Origin: Rhodoblastus acidophilus
GTDB taxonomy: Bacteria; Pseudomonadota; Alphaproteobacteria; Rhizobiales; Beijerinckiaceae
Length of the DNA: 43,526 nt
Assembly: GCF_025961575.1 (NCBI RefSeq)
Contig: NZ_JAOQNX010000038.1
Span: forward strand, 1 to 43,526
Direction of reading: 5' to 3'
Shown here: positions 22,144-30,059 of the stretch, piece by piece
Layout: every line of letters begins with the position of its first letter
Numbering within the stretch: position 1 is the stretch's first letter
Program-made: the position numbers and the translations under genes
Notes under the pieces: generated by a model
What the model saw: the letters and a program-made list of their open reading frames with translations, nothing else
Database searches by the model: none
Told to the model about the DNA's origin: nothing

Positions 22144-22650
22144 TCACCAACCGCTGTAATAGCCGCCGGGGCAGGTGCAGCCGCCGCCATAATAGCCGCC
22201 ATAGGCGGCGGGGGCGTAGCCGTAGCCTCCCCAGCCCCAATCCGAAGCCGCCGCCGCGGCCCCAAGTCCGATGCCCAGGCCGGCGAGGCCCAGGCCGACG
22301 CCCGGTCCCCAACCCCAGCCGCCGCCGCCCCAACGGCCGCCGCGCCAGCCCGCGCCGCGCCAGCCGCCATTCCAACCGGCGCGGTTCCAGCCTCCGCGGT
22401 TCCAGCCGCCGCCCGTCGCCCATCCGCCGCCTCGGAAGCCGCCGCCCTGGAAGGCCGCGCCCCGGAACCCGCCGCCGCCGAAGCCGCCGCCGTGGAAACC
22501 GCCGCCGTGGAAACCGCCGCCGTGGAAACCGCCCCCGTGGAATCCGCCGCCGCCCCGGAAGGCGAGGGCCGGTTCGCTGGCGACAAACGCGCCGGCTGCG
22601 GTGAGCGCTGTCGTGAACGCCAAAACTTTGATCGATGATTTTCCGCGCAT
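22144..22650 (-). CDS. Exported glycine-rich protein with GGGFH repeats
   Basis: 168 residues from ATG 22650 (GGGAGAG five bases upstream; an upstream in-frame start at 22686 lacks a site). The signal peptide is VLAFTTALTAAGAFVASEPALA. The mature part is Gly-rich, with five GGGFH(G) repeats (22480-22560), then Gly/Trp segments, a hydrophobic Gly/Ala stretch and a C-terminus rich in Tyr with two Cys (GGGCTCPGGYYSGW). It resembles the exported protein at 13693 in design but not in sequence. The function is unknown; such proteins may coat the cell surface. Confidence 0.75.
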   Translation of the reverse strand: MRGKSSIKVLAFTTALTAAGAFVASEPALAFRGGGGFHGGGFHGGGFHGGGFHGGGFGGGGFRGAAFQGGGFRGGGWATGGGWNRGGWNRAGWNGGWRGAGWRGGRWGGGGWGWGPGVGLGLAGLGIGLGAAAAASDWGWGGYGYAPAAYGGYYGGGCTCPGGYYSGW

Positions 22651-22726
22651 GAATGCTCTCCCGAGGTTTGTGCCTCGGCGCCGCAACGCGACGGCGCGCC
22701 CTATGGTTCCGAAGCGCGCCGGACGA

Positions 22727-23593
22727 TCATTGCAGTTGCGCGCGAATCCTCTGCAGCTCGGCCTTGCGCTGCTCGCTCACCTGCGGCCAGGACAATTTCA
22801 GTTTATCCATGGAGTCGAGGATGATCTGCGAGACGATCAGCCGCGCATTGGGCTTGTCGTCGGCGGGCACGACGAACCAGGGGGCGCTTTTCGTGCTGGT
22901 TTCGCTCAAGGCGCGCTCGTAGGCGCGGCGGTAGTCGCTCCAAAAACCGCGCTCGACCAGATCGGCCTGGGAGAATTTCCAGTTTTTCTGCGGCTCGTCG
23001 ATGCGGGCGAGAAAGCGCTTGCGCTGCTCCTCCTTGGACAGGTGCAGGAAAAACTTCAGCACATGGATGTTGTTGGCGCCCAGATGCCGCTCGAAGCCGC
23101 GGATCGAGCGGTAGCGCTCCTCCCAGAAGGCGTCGTCGGCTTGCGAGGGGTCGCGCCCCTCGGTGGCGAGCAGTTCGGGATGCACGCGGACGATGAGCAC
23201 GTCCTCGTAATGCGAGCGGTTGAAAATGCCGATGCGGCCGCGCTCCGGCAGGGCGCGATAGGCCCGCCACAAGAAATCATGCTCGAGTTCGGCGCCGCCC
23301 GGGTGCTTGAAGCTGGTGACCTCGCAGCCTTGCGGGTTGACGCCCGACATGACGTGCCGGATCACCCCGTCCTTGCCGGCGGCGTCCATCGCCTGGAAGA
23401 TGATGAGCAGGGCGTGGCGGTCGTCGGCGTAGAGCTTTTGCTGCTGGTCGCTCATCCGGGAAATGTGCCGGGCGAGCTGCGCCTGATAATCGTCTTTCGA
23501 ATCGTAAAAATCGTCGACGCGCGTCGGCCATTTCTTCAGCTCGACGGCATGGTCCGGCTTGACGCGAAAATCGTCGGGGTCGATGTCCTTCAT
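22727..23593 (-). CDS. ppk2: Polyphosphate kinase 2 family protein
   Basis: 288 residues, the one-domain PPK2 length. The P-loop reads [19 protein letters not shown] (Lys74). The following segments are [38 protein letters not shown], then [16 protein letters not shown] and the lid region with [21 protein letters not shown]2 enzymes transfer phosphate between polyphosphate and (d)NDP or NMP; the class cannot be fixed here. It starts seven bases after the alcohol dehydrogenase gene ends on the same strand, so the two form an operon. Confidence 0.93.
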
Positions 23594-23600
23594 ATCCGCC

Positions 23601-24596
23601 TCATGGAATCAGCACCGCGGCGCCTTCGAAGGCGCCGGCGCGAAGGTCGGCGAGCGCCCGATTGGCCTCGCGCAGCGGGTAACGCGTGATCTGCGTCCGC
23701 AAGCCCAATTCGGGGGCGAGTCGTAAAAATTCGACGCCGTCGCGGCGGGTGAGATTGGCCACCGAGACGAGCTGGCGCTCCTCCCACAGCAGGGCGTAGG
23801 GAAAGCTTGGAATGTCGCTCATGTGGATGCCGGCGCAGACCACCGCGCCGGCTTTTCGCACCGCTTTGAGCGCCAGAGGGACCAGCGCGCCGACGGGCGC
23901 GAAAATAATGGCGGCGTCGAGTTTTTCCGGGGGCGTTTCGCTCGCGCCGCCCGCCCAGACGGCGCCTAAACTTTTGGCAAAATCTTGGGCGCGCGCGTCG
24001 CCGTCCCTGGTGAAGGCGAAGACGGCATGGCCCTGTTTCGTTGCGGCTTGCGCCAGAATATGGGCGGCGGCGCCAAATCCATAGAGGCCCAAATTCTGCA
24101 CACGCCCGGCGCTGCGCAAGGCGATCTTGAAGGCGCGCCAGCCGATCAGCCCGGCGCAGAGCAGCGGCGCCAGTTCCGCCGAATCTCCCTTTTCGCCGAG
24201 CGGGAAGGAAAAGCGCGCGTCGGCGAGGCAATGGGTGGCGTAGCCGCCGTCGCGTGTGTGGCCGGTGAATTCGGGGGCGTCGCAGAGGTTTTCATGGCCG
24301 GATCGGCACGGGCCGCAGGTCTGGCAGGAATGGCCGAGCCAGGGGACGCCGACGCGTTCGCCGAGCGAAAAGCCGGTGACGCCTGGGCCCAAAAGATCGA
24401 CGCGGCCGACGATTTCATGGCCGGGGATGATCGGCAGATGCGGATCGGGCAGTTCGCCGTCATGGACGTGCAGGTCGGTGCGACAGACGCCGCAGGCCTC
24501 GATTTTCACGCGAATCTGGCCGGGGCCGGGCAGGGGATCGGGGCGCTCCTCCGCCTGCAGCGGTCCGCCGATTTTTTTCAGGACCATTGCGAACAT
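23601..24596 (-). CDS. Zinc-dependent alcohol dehydrogenase (AdhA-like, MDR family)
   Basis: 331 residues. Catalytic zinc ligands: Cys in [16 protein letters not shown] and His in PGHEIVGRV. Four structural-zinc cysteines lie in [15 protein letters not shown]. The nucleotide-binding fold has [16 protein letters not shown]; this GxGxxA variant is typical of the AdhA-like group. The group oxidises primary alcohols or reduces aldehydes with NAD(P). GGAAA lies upstream of ATG 24596; an ATG three codons later is possible. It is followed after seven bases by the polyphosphate kinase gene. A 10-bp hairpin stands in front of the start. Confidence 0.9.
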
Positions 24597-24665: not shown

Positions 24666-25088
24666 TCAGGCGAGGATCCAGCCGAACACGGCGCTCGCGG
24701 CGAGGCCGATCACGACCAGGCCCCATTCGAGCCAGCCCCAGTCGCGCACCAGTTCGCGCGAGTCCGCTTGCGGCTGGGCCTGCGCCAGCAGGCGATTGTT
24801 GATCGGCACGACGATGAAATAGAAATAGGGCCAGCTCGTCGCCGCGATCAGCGCCCCGACCAGCCAGCGGATGTCCTGGCCCTGGCCGAACGCCGCCAAA
24901 GCCGCGACCGCGCCGATGAGGGCGAGGCCGCCGAGCAGGGCGAAGCCGCGCCGGTCGCTCGGCGCCCACTCGCGGATCATGGAGGAATCGTCCAGGGCCA
25001 GCCGCGCGGGCTGCTCCACCAAAGCGATGTAGAGGGCGGCGCCGGTGAAGGCGGCGGCGAAAGCGAAAGCGAGCAGTCCGGCGAGCAT
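24666..25088 (-). CDS. DUF1772-like four-helix membrane protein
   Basis: 140 residues from ATG 25088; the frame is open to 25532, but the first part has no coding look. Four hydrophobic helices are visible: LAGLLAFAFAAAFTGAALYI, FALLGGLALIGAVAALAAF, WLVGALIAATSWPYFYFIVV and WGLVVIGLAASAVFGWILA. Between the last two comes PINNRLLAQ, the conserved loop of DUF1772 (anthrone-oxygenase-like) proteins. It sits in the inner membrane; the function in bacteria is unknown. It diverges from the 59-aa gene. Confidence 0.8.
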   Translation of the reverse strand: MLAGLLAFAFAAAFTGAALYIALVEQPARLALDDSSMIREWAPSDRRGFALLGGLALIGAVAALAAFGQGQDIRWLVGALIAATSWPYFYFIVVPINNRLLAQAQPQADSRELVRDWGWLEWGLVVIGLAASAVFGWILA

Positions 25089-25210
25089 TTCGGGCTCCAA
25101 TGGTGCGCCGTTGGCGGCGACATATCCGCGTAGCTCATAGCTCGTTTGCGCAGAAGACGAAAGCCTCGCGCATATCCCGCGCGCTATTAAGGAAAGGTTA
25201 GCACTAACAC

Positions 25211-25226
25211 TGGCATGATTGGTGCT
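25211..25226 (+). promoter_or_regulatory. Candidate sigma-54 (-24/-12) promoter
   Basis: TGGCATG, four bases, GTGCT: close to TGGCACG-N4-TTGCA, with the invariant GG and GC exactly ten bases apart. It would drive the 59-residue gene at 25314 with a leader of about 75 bases. Confidence 0.55.
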
Positions 25227-25313
25227 TGGAAGAAGTGTCTCATCCGCTGGTCTGACCGGGCTGCGGAACAGCAGTCCGGCCGGCGCGTTCAACGTGACTT
25301 CAAGGAGTTGACG

Positions 25314-25493
25314 ATGCCGCTTACCCGTTGCGTCTACTGCGCTCTGCCGACACGCATCCACTTCGCCTGGTGTCAGGAGAGCGGCGCCAAGGGCAATATG
25401 CCGCCCGAGGCTCTGCGCCCCGGCGCCATCGTCGTCGAGGCCCGCGAGTTGCGATTCTGCAAGCCGGTGGCGGCGAGCAAGAGCCGTCGCTGA
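25314..25493 (+). CDS. 59-residue protein with a CxxC motif, function unknown
   Basis: It starts with MPLTRCVYCALPTRIHF, and CAAGGAG lies a few bases before the ATG, a strong site. The CVYC pair plus later cysteines (WCQES, RFCKP) could bind a metal. The C-terminus is basic (ASKSRR). No family was recognised. The codon choice is that of the chromosome, and the reading frame is open beyond chance for the region. It is a single gene behind a sigma-54 promoter match, just outside the low-G+C cassette that starts at 25555 on the other strand. Confidence 0.6.
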   Translation: MPLTRCVYCALPTRIHFAWCQESGAKGNMPPEALRPGAIVVEARELRFCKPVAASKSRR

Positions 25494-25554
25494 GAGGGTT
25501 AAGCAAGCGTCAGCCATCTGGTGCGGCGACAAGGCACAACCTCAGTCTCCGATC

Positions 25555-26373
25555 CTAATTGCTGATCCAGGCTTCCAACGTGCCTGGCCTCACCTTACCC
25601 CCGTAGCCAGGCACAAGCTTGGGGGTAATGTCTCCCGACGTGGATGCCGTTATCGAAGCTGCGGCTCGTATTGCAAGTTTCTCGTCTGCTTGAAAAAAGT
25701 ATCGGAGTTCAGACGTCTTGGGAGCCTTGTCGCCAACGACTTCGACTTGCGATACTACATTCAAGCCTGGAAGCGCCTTGCGCAAGTCCGCTCCTGCGCG
25801 TGAGATCGCGTCGATCTGTTCCTTTTTTTCGACTTGAAAAAACAGTCGTCCAGCGATTCTCGACGTATCCATGTCTGTGCAGACGAAAGCAGAAATATAA
25901 TTTGGCGTAAAGGCTTCGCCTTCATGCGGTTTTATAGTGACAGCGGCCGTCACTGCCAGCCAAGGCGAATGCACACTTTCCACGAAGATCTTCGATAGAG
26001 GATCTTTGGCATCGTAAGTCAACACAATTTTTGTGTTCGCCAGTGGTAGGGCCTGTGCATCGAGCCTCCTGACGATGTTTTCCTTGTCTATTGATCTTGT
26101 GCGGATCACAATGCTCTTCAACATTTTGGCAGCAGGACCGATTCTCGCCAGGACCGCGTACGCGGCTGCTAGTTCAGACGCCGTTTGTGCTCGGTTCTGT
26201 GCCTGATCGTCTCCTGTACACCAGAAAACGTCGGTCGTGAGCGTCGGCGCGCCGGGAGCGCTCGCGCTTGTATCAATCACCACACGGGCACCGGAACGGT
26301 CATCCGATTGAGCGTGTGAACCAGAGTTCGCTAGAGCGAACAGCAGGACTAAGAGCACGAATGTCCGAATCAT
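25555..26373 (-). CDS. Exported protein with two similar small domains, third gene of the caspase cassette
   Basis: 272 residues from ATG 26373, which overlaps the caspase stop as ATGA. Signal peptide: TFVLLVLLFALANSGSHAQ. Two segments seem to share a fold. Near residue 45, TTDVFWCTGDDQAQN is followed by a helix and a strand. Near the end, SELRYFFQADEKLAIRAA is followed by a helix and RPGTLEAWI. This strand-helix-strand plan, with the closing GTLE-W, recalls LytR C-terminal or SPOR-like domains; that is pattern reading only. It is periplasmic by prediction. Its base composition is far lower in G+C than the flanking genes. Confidence 0.7.
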   Translation of the reverse strand: MIRTFVLLVLLFALANSGSHAQSDDRSGARVVIDTSASAPGAPTLTTDVFWCTGDDQAQNRAQTASELAAAYAVLARIGPAAKMLKSIVIRTRSIDKENIVRRLDAQALPLANTKIVLTYDAKDPLSKIFVESVHSPWLAVTAAVTIKPHEGEAFTPNYISAFVCTDMDTSRIAGRLFFQVEKKEQIDAISRAGADLRKALPGLNVVSQVEVVGDKAPKTSELRYFFQADEKLAIRAAASITASTSGDITPKLVPGYGGKVRPGTLEAWISN

Positions 26374-27278
26374 TTCGTCTCCCCGCAACTCGTGAGGCAT
26401 CCCTCCGGCGGCGGCGGATTCAGTGAACCGGTCGTGTCGGGGAGTTGTTGAATTTTCGAGTTGATTGTTTTTTCCTTAACCGACCTGATGACTCGAGCGA
26501 CGAGAGGATCGATGCGTCCTTCCGCTTTGAGGTGCTCCTCGAACGCAAGCGCGAACGGGCTGCCGCCGCTTAATCCGTCACTTGCTAATTCGCCGTAGGC
26601 GGTAGAATAGAGAAGTTTAATGCCGAGGGCGGGTCTGGGGTACGCGCGGCTCGCATTGAAATATGCCTCCGCTATCTTGGGGTCGGCTTTGGCCAATTGA
26701 TCTACGGGAGTCTCTCGGCAGGCGTCGACGACAATAAAAATGCTTCCATCTCCGGCATCTCCAACCTGCGAGATCAAGTCCGAGAACAAGCGCACGCCAC
26801 CATGGAAGATGCTGCTTCCCGCGTTGACCGTAGCCACCCTGGCCGCTTTTTGCGGATCGAGGAACGAATCCACTCCGAACAAATATGTTTCATTCCGCAC
26901 CTGCACGCCATGGCCTGCGTAGTATATGAATCCCAGTGCGTGATCATCTGAGAGATAAATGTCCTTAAATTGTGCGATCGCGTCGCTCAATTGAGAGCGA
27001 GTCGCGTCACATATTTGAATCATCTCAGATTGCTGCCAATTAGCGCTTTCGAGGACTGCTGCGATCCTCGTGACATCGTTGCACGGATTTGTCAGTTTCT
27101 TAAAGGCCTTAAGGCCTTGCGTCGGAACTTCCTGTCTGTAGCCTGAGTTACCGATTAGCAATGCGATCCGGGTCGTAGATTTCGTCTCCTCTCGGACAGC
27201 CCGTTCCTGGGATGAAGCGGTATGGCCGAAAAGTAATGTGCAAGCACCGACCATTGCGACATGAGGCAAGAAGCGCAT
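26370..27278 (-). CDS. Exported caspase-fold peptidase (family C14)
   Basis: 302 residues from ATG 27278. A TTG at 27299 overlaps the previous stop as TTGA and would add seven residues; neither has a strong ribosome site. A signal peptide (FLPHVAMVGACTLLFGHTASS) is followed by the caspase p20 domain: TRIALLIGNSGY, LTNPCNDVTRIAAVLE, catalytic His123 in GFIYYAGHGVQV and catalytic Cys187 in FIVVDACRETP. The segment after that (LLYSTAYGELASDGLSGGSPFALAF) is the substrate-pocket strand of bacterial C14 proteins. The caspase dyad is complete. Export makes a role in cytoplasmic abortive infection unlikely. It is the second gene of three overlapping genes. Confidence 0.9.
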   Translation of the reverse strand: MRFLPHVAMVGACTLLFGHTASSQERAVREETKSTTRIALLIGNSGYRQEVPTQGLKAFKKLTNPCNDVTRIAAVLESANWQQSEMIQICDATRSQLSDAIAQFKDIYLSDDHALGFIYYAGHGVQVRNETYLFGVDSFLDPQKAARVATVNAGSSIFHGGVRLFSDLISQVGDAGDGSIFIVVDACRETPVDQLAKADPKIAEAYFNASRAYPRPALGIKLLYSTAYGELASDGLSGGSPFALAFEEHLKAEGRIDPLVARVIRSVKEKTINSKIQQLPDTTGSLNPPPPEGCLTSCGETK

Positions 27279-27295
27279 GAATGAAATCCGCGTGA

Positions 27296-28246
27296 TCAAT
27301 CTGTTTCGGTTGGATCGAACGCTCGCGACTGTTCATCCGTCCACTTGAGTTCCTTATTCAACTGCTGGTCGAGCAGTAGGTCAATTGTTCCTCGTTCCGC
27401 CTCTGGATTTTCATCCTCTAGTATTGAGCGGGTCTGCAACTTGATACGTTCGACGGCGTCCAGGTATGTCCAGCGATTTGGGGCCCACATTTGGCCCGCG
27501 TTCAGGAGAGCGCGATTGTCGGAACGAATGACGCCGCAGTCATGAGGAACGATCCTGCTTGCCGGGCAAAATTCATCGGTGCAGTTATTAGGTGCGTCCG
27601 CTGGGCAATATTCGCCGAAGAAAGCGTTCCGGAAGGCGAAGCCAGCATCGGGCTTGCCCTTGCCTTGCGCGGAAAAATAGCGGAAGCCCACTACGTCACT
27701 GGAAAACGCCTTGCTGCGTGTCAAGTCAGGTTTGAGAAACCCGAGAAAAACGACGGCATGGCCAGATTTTTTGCGATTGAGGTTTATGAAATCGCCCGGT
27801 TCCAAATCTCGGAAGCGTTTTTCTTCACCTAACCCAAATTTCGCAAGTGTATGCCCCGTTCCTCGCGATCCCGTTCCATCGAACATAAATATGTTTGCCC
27901 TGAGAGAGGTAACGTTGCCTCTGGTCCATGCTGTGAGCGGAATTTTTTTGTAAACCGTTTCGTCCTGATGAGTTTGTGCATATATATTAATAGCGTTCAC
28001 GATAACTTCTGTCACGCCGGCAACGCACATCGTCAAGGCTGGTCTGGTTGCCTTTATGATTCCATCATTGCTGTACTTGATGTTGTGCGTAAATGCGCTG
28101 TTTATGTCGTAGCCTCCGCCTCTGTTGTTTTTATAAGAATCCATTACTGATTTCACGATGTAATCGTTGAAAACTTCTGCGCATTGTGATTCGCTCGCGA
28201 AAAAAACAAAAGCAAAAGAGGCGGTCGTGATCTGTAGAAAATTCAT
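27296..28246 (-). CDS. Exported NlpC/P60- or CHAP-like cysteine hydrolase, first gene of the caspase cassette
   Basis: 316 residues from ATG 28246, chosen because AGGGGA lies nine bases upstream; an ATG at 28255 is too close to that site. Signal peptide: NFLQITTASFAFVFFASESQ. The papain-like core is read from Cys74 at the start of a helix (LTMCVAGVTEVIVNAI), then EPGDFINLNR and SGHAVVFLGF with His163, the arrangement of NlpC/P60 and CHAP amidases. A third polar residue may be in FRYFSAQGKG. The C-terminal third holds several Cys (EYCPADAPNNC, DEFCPAS, DCGV), likely disulfides. The substrate could be peptidoglycan. No close family was recognised. Confidence 0.75.
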   Translation of the reverse strand: MNFLQITTASFAFVFFASESQCAEVFNDYIVKSVMDSYKNNRGGGYDINSAFTHNIKYSNDGIIKATRPALTMCVAGVTEVIVNAINIYAQTHQDETVYKKIPLTAWTRGNVTSLRANIFMFDGTGSRGTGHTLAKFGLGEEKRFRDLEPGDFINLNRKKSGHAVVFLGFLKPDLTRSKAFSSDVVGFRYFSAQGKGKPDAGFAFRNAFFGEYCPADAPNNCTDEFCPASRIVPHDCGVIRSDNRALLNAGQMWAPNRWTYLDAVERIKLQTRSILEDENPEAERGTIDLLLDQQLNKELKWTDEQSRAFDPTETD

Positions 28247-28502
28247 CTTGATCATTCCCCTGAGGACGTAAAATTATTTCGATCATATTTCATCGAATAT
28301 GGTTCCTCAAGTTCCGCGGGTGATCAATTTAATTTGAGAGAGGAATTGGGTCTATTGGTAAATACCAGAAATAAAACAAAATTGTCTTTTTGAACGCCAG
28401 TGCCGCGTTGCGGGTACGGGTTTCATAAGCGTGCAAATGCTAGGCTCACCCCGCCGTTGCATTGCGCGTAAAATTCGGCCAGTTAGGGCTGCAATCCCAC
28501 AA

Positions 28503-30059
28503 ATGGTCGAGCCGATGAAACGCGCCCTTTCCGTCACCCGCGAAGACAATTTCCCCGAATGGTACCAGGCCGTGGTCGATCAGGCCGATCTCGCGGAGAC
28601 CTCGCCGGTGCGCGGCTGCATGATCATCAAGCCCTGGGGGTGGGGCGTGTGGGAGCTGGTGCAGCAGGCTTTGGACAAGCGCATCAAGGACACCGGCCAC
28701 GAGAATTGCTATTTTCCGCTGTTCATCCCCATGAGCTTCATCGCCCAGGAGGCGAGCCACGTCGAAGGGTTCGCCAAGGAAATGGCGGTGGTCACCCATC
28801 ATCGCCTGAAGGCGGTCGACGGCAAGCTGGTGGTCGATCCGTCCTCCGAACTGGAGGAGCCGCTGGTGGTGCGCCCGACCTCCGAGACGATTATCGGCGA
28901 CGCGTTCCGGCGCTGGATCGCCAGCTATCGCGACCTGCCGGTGCTGGTGAACCAATGGGCCAATGTCGTGCGCTGGGAAATGCGCACCCGCCTGTTCCTG
29001 CGCACCGCCGAATTCCTGTGGCAGGAGGGCCATACCGCCCACGCCAGCCGCGACGACGCGATGGAAGAGACGCTGAAAATGCTCGATATCTATCGCGAAC
29101 TGGCCGAAGAGATTTTGGCCATGCCGGTGGTGGTCGGCGAAAAGCCGGAGAACGAGCGGTTCCCGGGCGCCGACGCCACCTATTCCATCGAAGCCATGAT
29201 GCAGGACGGCAAGGCGCTGCAGGCGGGCACGTCGCATTATCTCGGCCAGAACTTTGCGAAAGCCCAGAACATTCGCTTCCAGTCCGCGACCGGCGAACTC
29301 GAATTTGCGCACACCACCTCCTGGGGCGTGTCGACGCGGCTGATCGGCGGCGTCATCATGACCCATGGCGATGACGACGGCCTGCGCCTGCCGCCGCGCA
29401 TCGCGCCCAAGCAGATCGTGATTGTCCCGATGTTGCGGGAAAAACCCGAGGACGCCGATCTGCTCGCCTATTGCGAAAAGCTGAAGGGCGAGTTGGACCA
29501 GCTTTCTGCGTTTGGCCTGCCGCTGCGCGCGCATCTCGACAAAAAACCGACCCGGTCCGCGAACAAGCGTTGGGACTGGCTGCGCCGCGGCGCGCCCATC
29601 CTGCTCGAAATCGGCCCGCGCGATATGGCCGGCGACAATGTCACCCTGATTCGCCGCGACCGTCTGCGCGACGGCGACAAGGTGATATCCACAGGTTTCG
29701 CGCGCGAAAAATTTCTGGCGGAGGCGTCGGGCCTGCTGGCGGAAATCCAGCAAAACCTGTTCGCCGAGGCCAAGGCGCGGCTCGAGGGCAATATCCGCGC
29801 CGACCTGAAAACGTTCGACGAGATCGCCGCCTTTTTCGGCGCGGCCGGCGAAGATGACGAGAAATCAGGCTTCAAGGGTTGGGTGCGCGCCCCCTGGGCG
29901 CGGCCGACCGGCGCCGAACTCGAGGCGGTGGAGGCGCGTCTCAAGGCGCTCAAACTCACGCTTCGCAATGTTCCGGTCGGTCAGGGCGCGCCCTCCGGCC
30001 CCTGCGTGTTCACGGGCAAGCCGGCGCTTGAAGAAATCATCATCGCCCGCGCTTATTGA
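28503..30059 (+). CDS. proS: Prolyl-tRNA synthetase, archaeal/eukaryal type
   Basis: 518 residues from ATG 28503 (ATG 28515 and an upstream ATG 28431 are alternatives; none has a clear site). It charges tRNA-Pro. Class II motifs: VRGCMIIKPWGWGVWELVQ near the start, VRPTSETIIGDAFRRWI, motif 2 QWANVVRWEMRTRLFLRTAE with FLWQEGHTAHA, and motif 3 in THGDDDGLRLPPRIAP. An anticodon-binding domain follows. This is the short form without the bacterial editing insertion, with the extra C-terminal domain ending in ARAY. Where relatives have zinc cysteines, only one Cys remains (GPCVFTGKPA), so the metal site is probably lost. It follows the accessory cassette on the other strand. Confidence 0.93.
   Translation: MVEPMKRALSVTREDNFPEWYQAVVDQADLAETSPVRGCMIIKPWGWGVWELVQQALDKRIKDTGHENCYFPLFIPMSFIAQEASHVEGFAKEMAVVTHHRLKAVDGKLVVDPSSELEEPLVVRPTSETIIGDAFRRWIASYRDLPVLVNQWANVVRWEMRTRLFLRTAEFLWQEGHTAHASRDDAMEETLKMLDIYRELAEEILAMPVVVGEKPENERFPGADATYSIEAMMQDGKALQAGTSHYLGQNFAKAQNIRFQSATGELEFAHTTSWGVSTRLIGGVIMTHGDDDGLRLPPRIAPKQIVIVPMLREKPEDADLLAYCEKLKGELDQLSAFGLPLRAHLDKKPTRSANKRWDWLRRGAPILLEIGPRDMAGDNVTLIRRDRLRDGDKVISTGFAREKFLAEASGLLAEIQQNLFAEAKARLEGNIRADLKTFDEIAAFFGAAGEDDEKSGFKGWVRAPWARPTGAELEAVEARLKALKLTLRNVPVGQGAPSGPCVFTGKPALEEIIIARAY

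Follow-up and report, generated by a model that had tools for sequence, protein, structure and literature searches.

A horizontally acquired three-gene cassette in Rhodoblastus acidophilus that couples a caspase to an orphan Cys/His protein

Introduction

What does a small caspase operon of foreign composition do upstream of proS in a 43,526-nucleotide contig of Rhodoblastus acidophilus (NZ_JAOQNX010000038.1, positions 1 to 43,526 of the forward strand; this whole stretch is called the window here), and do the three proteins that it encodes, named P1, P2 and P3 in the order of their genes, work together? The roles of bacterial caspases outside a few models are an open question, and the cassette offers a compact three-gene test case, a transferable and probably exported caspase that comes with its own partner, in which the substrate, the activator and the compartment can each be named in turn.

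A foreign segment upstream of proS

The three genes lie on the minus strand. P1 (319 aa) is encoded at 27296..28255, as delimited from the list of open reading frames (ORFs), P2 (309 aa) at 26370..27299, with a TTG start and an alternative ATG at 27278 (Met at residue 8), and P3 (281 aa) at 25555..26400 in the ORF list, with a likely start at 26373 (Met10). The P1 and P2 ORFs overlap by 4 nt, and those of P2 and P3 by 31 nt, which become 4 nt (ATGA) if P3 starts at Met10. The segment that carries them (25495..28452, without strand, its approximate ends drawn by blastn against the congener L068) has a G+C content of 0.51 against 0.66 in the rest of the window, in agreement with an initial annotation, made from the letters alone, that had described three overlapping minus-strand genes of low G+C.

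The cassette is missing from all ten congeneric genomes, in which the two flanking stretches lie 45-827 nt apart, compared with 2958 nt in the window. At the shortest empty site (L068, 45 nt), the left-side match ends at about 25494 and the proS side starts at about 28453. The cassette is thus a horizontally acquired, discrete foreign segment, as had been supposed from its composition, and a second low-G+C island in another genome (see below) bears this out. The alternative to gain would be loss in all ten congeners; gain is favoured over such a ten-fold loss because the composition of the segment is foreign. With respect to repeats at the insertion ends, positions 25000-28700 hold short imperfect repeats only, and there is no tRNA within the window.

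The caspase P2

Its profile match and active-site residues identify P2 as a predicted caspase-family peptidase with intact catalytic residues. It matches PF00656 (Peptidase C14) with an E-value of 2.8e-20 and 73.5 bits against a gathering score of 21.4, and the dyad His130/Cys194, given as His123/Cys187 in the initial annotation and corresponding to these residues of the full ORF, is intact in P2, in the caspase of a second genome (G153) and in P0004, the larger caspase of other loci introduced below. The best match in PDB is MALT1 (E 5e-05), and PADLOC returned a single generic caspase model (E 5.5e-11).

Further caspase genes were noticed elsewhere. A region of the same genome (L016, G000:C30:28000-44000) contains three more PF00656 genes, one with TPRs and one with a sub-threshold PG_binding_1 match, near OmpA-like and RND efflux-like genes (by eye), and on a Ruegeria conchae plasmid (L010) three annotated caspase genes adjoin genes of the OmpA-family and filamentous-hemagglutinin-type.

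P1, a Cys/His orphan family

The Cys74/His163 pair that the initial annotation took for a papain-like core was counted from Met4 and corresponds to Cys77 and His166 of the full ORF, both of which are conserved at all 24 loci (25 alignment rows; Cys77 is missing from a single row, which comes from a gene divided between two ORFs and represents its C-terminal part). Among others, Arg161, Gly190, Phe191, Tyr193, Asn252, Gly254, Pro259 and Trp262 are also invariant wherever they are covered, Gln197 is present in 23 of 24 loci, the exception being the decayed-looking L035, and two additional motifs, GF.Y.S.QG and LN.G....P..W, are conserved.

P1 is without a Pfam or NCBIfam match at E-values up to 1, and PF00877 (NlpC/P60) and PF05257 (CHAP) were matched neither by P1 nor by any of the 24 rows of its family (Pfam, E up to 1). 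The Pfam search of these rows returned six stray families, one row each, at E 0.01-0.32 (PF00656 at 0.17), and the NCBIfam search three at E 0.033-0.14; the P1 of genome G696 gave a stray PF15890 match at E 0.053. PHROGs yielded no matches for the three P1 proteins tried, and a PDB profile search with the family found nothing at E up to 10. In a profile alignment with hhalign, P1 against NlpC/P60 reached a weak P of 0.018 and an HH probability of 2.5%, with Cys placed on Cys and His on His, compared with 0.75 for the reversed control; for calibration, the known NlpC-CHAP pair gave a P of 0.0021 (13.5%) and the negatives 0.19-0.75, the profiles being built from 13 of 20 fetched NlpC/P60 loci and 19 of 20 fetched CHAP loci. 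A papain-like fold is plausible for P1, which is a putative hydrolase of the NlpC/P60 type. CHAP was rejected as the family of P1, its profile alignment covering the His motif and missing the Cys.

P3 and the question of export

P3 has no match in Pfam (E up to 1, LytR_C/SPOR-type families included, although no direct profile-profile comparison was made with these), NCBIfam (E up to 1) or PDB (E up to 10). The two similar small domains that had been read in it are only hinted at by comparison of its halves, which align in register (P 0.055; reversed controls, 0.68 and 0.74) and are suggestive of two repeat-like halves. The window protein has Cys61 and Cys174 in common with its counterparts in G153 and in Pararoseomonas baculiformis (L018); a disulphide and a binding role for P3 are guesses. 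The C-terminal region carries the motif RYFF..D...LE.W, which P3 has in common with a protein of its own genome (L008, C30:7789-7953; E 1.8e-7), in which a membrane segment is apparent by eye, and with a protein of genome G405 (L039; E 3.5e-5); in both it likewise forms the end of the protein, and up to an E-value of 0.1 no Pfam family covers this region. P3 was matched in five of 385 genomes of the class, at full length in its own genome and G153 only, and in none of the 59 other relatives, and one weak second match is present in its own genome.

All three proteins are probably exported, judging from their N-termini. In a hydropathy scan of 15 proteins, 12 had an N-terminal maximum higher than that found elsewhere in the chain, and P3 read from Met10 has a strongly hydrophobic N-terminus. 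The signal peptides that the initial annotation ascribed to all three therefore fit for P2 and P3, while that of the window P1, read by eye, falls slightly short in the scan.

Recurrence of the cassette

Using a two-row profile search, P1 was found in two of 385 genomes of the class, those of the window and G153, and a genome-contig scan for P1 gave 20 loci. In G153, which belongs to the same class and another family, P1, P2 and P3 stand in the same order, a recurrence of the kind sought for a moving cassette and one that makes the arrangement more than chance. The 31-nt overlap of P2 and P3 is as in the window, P1 and P2 are spaced by 10 nt, and the identities to the window are 62% for the P1 core, 48% for P2 (51% by tblastn) and 35-36% for P3. 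The G153 ORFs have a G+C content of 0.45-0.50 and lie between genes of 0.70 and 0.74, and two high-G+C genomes therefore carry the cassette as a low-G+C island. In P. baculiformis, P1 is followed with a 4-nt overlap by a single ORF of 668 aa in which the matches to P2 (E 2e-20) and to P3 (E 8e-18) share the frame, a caspase-P3 fusion; its PF00656 score is 22.4 bits against a cut-off of 21.4, its dyad was read by eye, and the G+C content of this cassette (0.66) is not low. The caspases of these three loci, which we call type A, group together with support of 96/98 (14 rows; L018 forms a long branch), and their P1 proteins do so with moderate support of 91/82 in a tree in which G153 is represented by its C-terminal ORF piece, L037 forms a long branch and G696 was left out.

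In a second arrangement, type B, a larger PF00656 caspase of the P0004 kind lies 1-3 nt downstream of P1. Three such loci were found, on a Rhizobium lusitanum plasmid (L009), in Rhizobium sp. ASV8 (L031) and in G696 (L079), with PF00656 E-values of 1.1e-14, 3.8e-13 and 7.4e-16, respectively. The R. lusitanum plasmid p_4 is the sole plasmid record with a P1 relative (39%, E 4e-52). In a direct BLASTP comparison P0004 and P2 did not match significantly, and P0005, the third protein of L009 and L031, showed no direct similarity to P3; G696 has no third gene on the cassette strand. On the opposite strand, L009 and L031 share one arrangement (L009:12699-15757 and L031:14155-16985) of a probable lipoprotein (by eye), a protein that joins a caspase-like stretch to a GH25 lysozyme (GH25 E 4.5e-27 and 1.3e-27) and a second GH25 gene.

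A caspase is the next gene downstream of P1 in six of eight alphaproteobacterial loci, with a caspase scrap in one of the others and none in the last; these counts refer to loci reached through P1 searches. Gene calls around P1 relatives came from a rough ORF heuristic, used solely for picking neighbours, which left L022 and L031 unplaced. In Alphaproteobacteria, P1 thus repeatedly precedes a caspase, and at least two different caspase types take this place. As to the question whether caspases are found without the flanking genes, which the initial annotation had raised against its own proposal, caspases in general do occur alone, with 244 plasmid-record matches for P2 (none above 32% identity among the 20 listed) compared with one for P1 and none for P3. 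The three type-A caspases all accompany P1, in loci reached through P1 and so without the force of an independent check.

The set is rare and scattered. P1 occurs in two of 397 genomes of the order (its own and G696), in one of 397 from the family of Pararoseomonas (the search seed) and in none of the 59 other relatives. Phage records gave no P1 matches, and in viral contigs 64 pattern matches from a two-row alignment led to no confirmed case, a weak result as the patterns sat in the variable N-terminus.

P1 outside Alphaproteobacteria

Sixteen P1 loci lie outside this class, seven labelled Elusimicrobiota, six Myxococcota and three without a phylum label, and P1 represents a family in at least three bacterial groups that is unmatched by the family libraries searched. 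In the Myxococcota relatives, the P1 part forms the C-terminus of longer proteins with starts that look lipoprotein-like by eye, and the single one scanned, L024, has TSP_3 (thrombospondin type 3) repeats. A YkuD transpeptidase gene is located directly upstream of P1 in L027, the single Elusimicrobia neighbour scanned. Together with GH25, these neighbourhoods point to the cell wall, in few contexts. The neighbours in L032 and L036 look similar to the YkuD gene of L027, and several Elusimicrobiota P1 loci (e.g., L019, L027, L032, L033 and L036) lie near an oligoendopeptidase F-like gene (by eye), as if in a conserved chromosomal place.

Genes flanking the cassette

The left flank outside the cassette is an Anthrone_oxy-like gene (24666..25133, minus strand; PF08592, E 2.3e-9) that is present in 11 of 11 genomes of the genus, its own included. 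On the right, proS (28431..30059, plus strand), identified as a proline-tRNA ligase gene by matches to Pfam and annotated proS, diverges from the cassette; its true start is probably at about 28488-28515, since the congeners align only from residue 20-29 on, and its closest plasmid-record matches are from Rhizobium (64%) and Sphingomonas (62%), which puts the window among the Alphaproteobacteria. The gap between these two genes, at 45-827 nt in the congeners L066-L075, resembles an insertion-prone site. A long proline-rich ORF at 22271-23689 (plus strand), antisense to the PPK2 gene (22727-23593), is probably no gene.

Interpretation

The explanation that we favour, while holding it just short of probable, is that the acquired operon encodes a small proteolytic module, probably exported, in which the caspase controls or assists an envelope hydrolase. 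P1 would be a papain-like hydrolase whose target is peptidoglycan or some other polymer of the envelope, and the co-translated caspase would share the compartment of P1, where it may activate or inactivate P1 through limited proteolysis or trim proteins that P1 exposes. P3 could be the binding or regulatory module of the caspase, which is a chain of its own in the window and joined to the caspase in Pararoseomonas. A role in controlled wall opening or self-lysis, or as a surface-directed enzyme set, seems likely under such a scheme. That the caspase acts with P1 is suggested by the tight coupling of the genes, by the P2-P3 fusion and by the recurrence of P1 next to a caspase of another type, and since the P1-caspase pairing recurs in unrelated bacteria, joint work outside the cytoplasm can be proposed. 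A bolder version is conceivable but doubtful: P1 would found a hitherto undescribed family of exported Cys-His hydrolases that spans Elusimicrobiota, Myxococcota and Alphaproteobacteria, and in the last of these it would have been wired, perhaps twice, to an exported caspase as a transferable envelope-side proteolytic cascade controlling wall cleavage.

A number of observations weigh against these proposals. The alignment of P1 with CHAP gave a P of 0.15. Three proteins depart from the hydropathy pattern, the window P1 (1.94 at the N-terminus vs 2.08 elsewhere), the L018 P1 (clearly, at 1.29) and the L018 fusion (narrowly). In G153, P1 is broken into two ORFs that overlap in different frames, P1 in the Bradyrhizobium locus L035 is followed by a 73-residue scrap of a P0004-like start, and in the Afipia locus L037 it stands without a caspase match. 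The caspase-like stretch of the GH25 proteins is weak, with E-values of 3e-05 and 4e-06 in a home-made HMM of nine sequences, including P2, its relatives and P0004, and without a PF00656 match. The type A and type B caspases are not close kin, and their pairing with P1 may therefore be convergent or opportunistic. Outside Alphaproteobacteria, no caspase ORF accompanies P1 within the stretch fetched for any of the 16 loci (that of L020 ends 26 nt past P1), and nine of the 16 genomes yielded no match to PF00656 in a search that also missed the divergent fused caspase of L018. An obligatory form of the cascade between caspase and P1 that the initial annotation envisaged is weakened by these figures; because P1 occurs without a caspase in other groups, the caspase is better regarded as an added partner than as a requirement for P1.

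The same caspase-free loci would suit a set of secreted exoenzymes, in which P1 and the caspase digest proteins or polymers of other organisms, for nutrition, competition or host interaction, and are co-regulated without any cascade. The long Myxococcota relatives with their lipoprotein-like starts and the TSP_3 repeats of L024, as in surface or secreted enzymes, fit this possibility, as does the rare and scattered distribution; the cassette is, however, without a secretion-system gene, and the P3-caspase fusion and the strict gene coupling argue for a tighter functional unit, which leaves such a set a rather unlikely explanation.

We consider still less likely a conflict or programmed-lysis module, an envelope-side counterpart of cytoplasmic caspase defence, in which the caspase would sense envelope damage or an invader, activate the wall hydrolase (P1 or the GH25 proteins) and lyse the cell. 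The occurrence as a low-G+C island in two genomes, the plasmid location in R. lusitanum, the caspase-like-GH25 genes nearby, the match to the PADLOC caspase model and the links of caspases to amidase and wall-binding domains in the excerpted text of PMC3501461 are in line with it. No sensor or immunity gene is recognisable in the cassette, however, P1 is unmatched in phage records, and no defence family was found by name among the seven Pfam-matched of the ten window proteins scanned, a count that covers Pfam and not PADLOC. It is very improbable that three unrelated exported genes from one donor merely travelled together without joint function, for although P1 and caspases are each found without the other and the split P1 of G153 indicates that the set can decay, the gene order is kept despite divergence to 35-62% identity, and the P2-P3 fusion and the renewed pairing of P1 with another caspase type largely contradict it.

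Comparison with known systems

No recognisable description of the P1-caspase-P3 set was found in the open-licence literature, in part as excerpts, which does not prove its absence. Some prokaryotic caspase homologs (metacaspases and orthocaspases, PF00656) carry peptidoglycan-binding or Amidase_2 domains; possible signal peptides have been noted in caspases, and some caspase operons are reported to have surface functions or to include a wall amidase (excerpts of PMC3501461). P2 resembles these homologs as a PF00656 peptidase with intact His and Cys, whereas P1 matches no known domain, Amidase_2 included, and the three-gene set is unmentioned in those excerpts; the Rhizobium caspase operon described there may overlap type B.

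The gene of the orthocaspase MaOC1 is likewise encoded together with partners and has repeats on either side; according to PMC7935541, these partners are a toxin-antitoxin pair, and none was recognised in our cassette. With the NlpC/P60 and CHAP wall hydrolases (PF00877 and PF05257), P1 seems to share the order of its motifs, Cys, PGD(F) and GH(A)V, but it differs from them in that none of the 24 P1 rows matches either family and in having GF.Y.S.QG and LN.G....P..W besides.

In the two-gene EACC1 caspase system, as presented in PMC7159879, the 5' gene encodes an EACC1 protein with one transmembrane segment, whereas P1 here has 319 aa, a conserved Cys/His core and no Pfam or NCBIfam match, and P2 is not of the NF047832 (caspase_w_EACC1) type, scoring 28.4 bits against a cut-off of 140. 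Both systems nevertheless have a two-gene core with the caspase in the 3' gene, and for the EACC1 system, too, a function at the membrane side is suspected.

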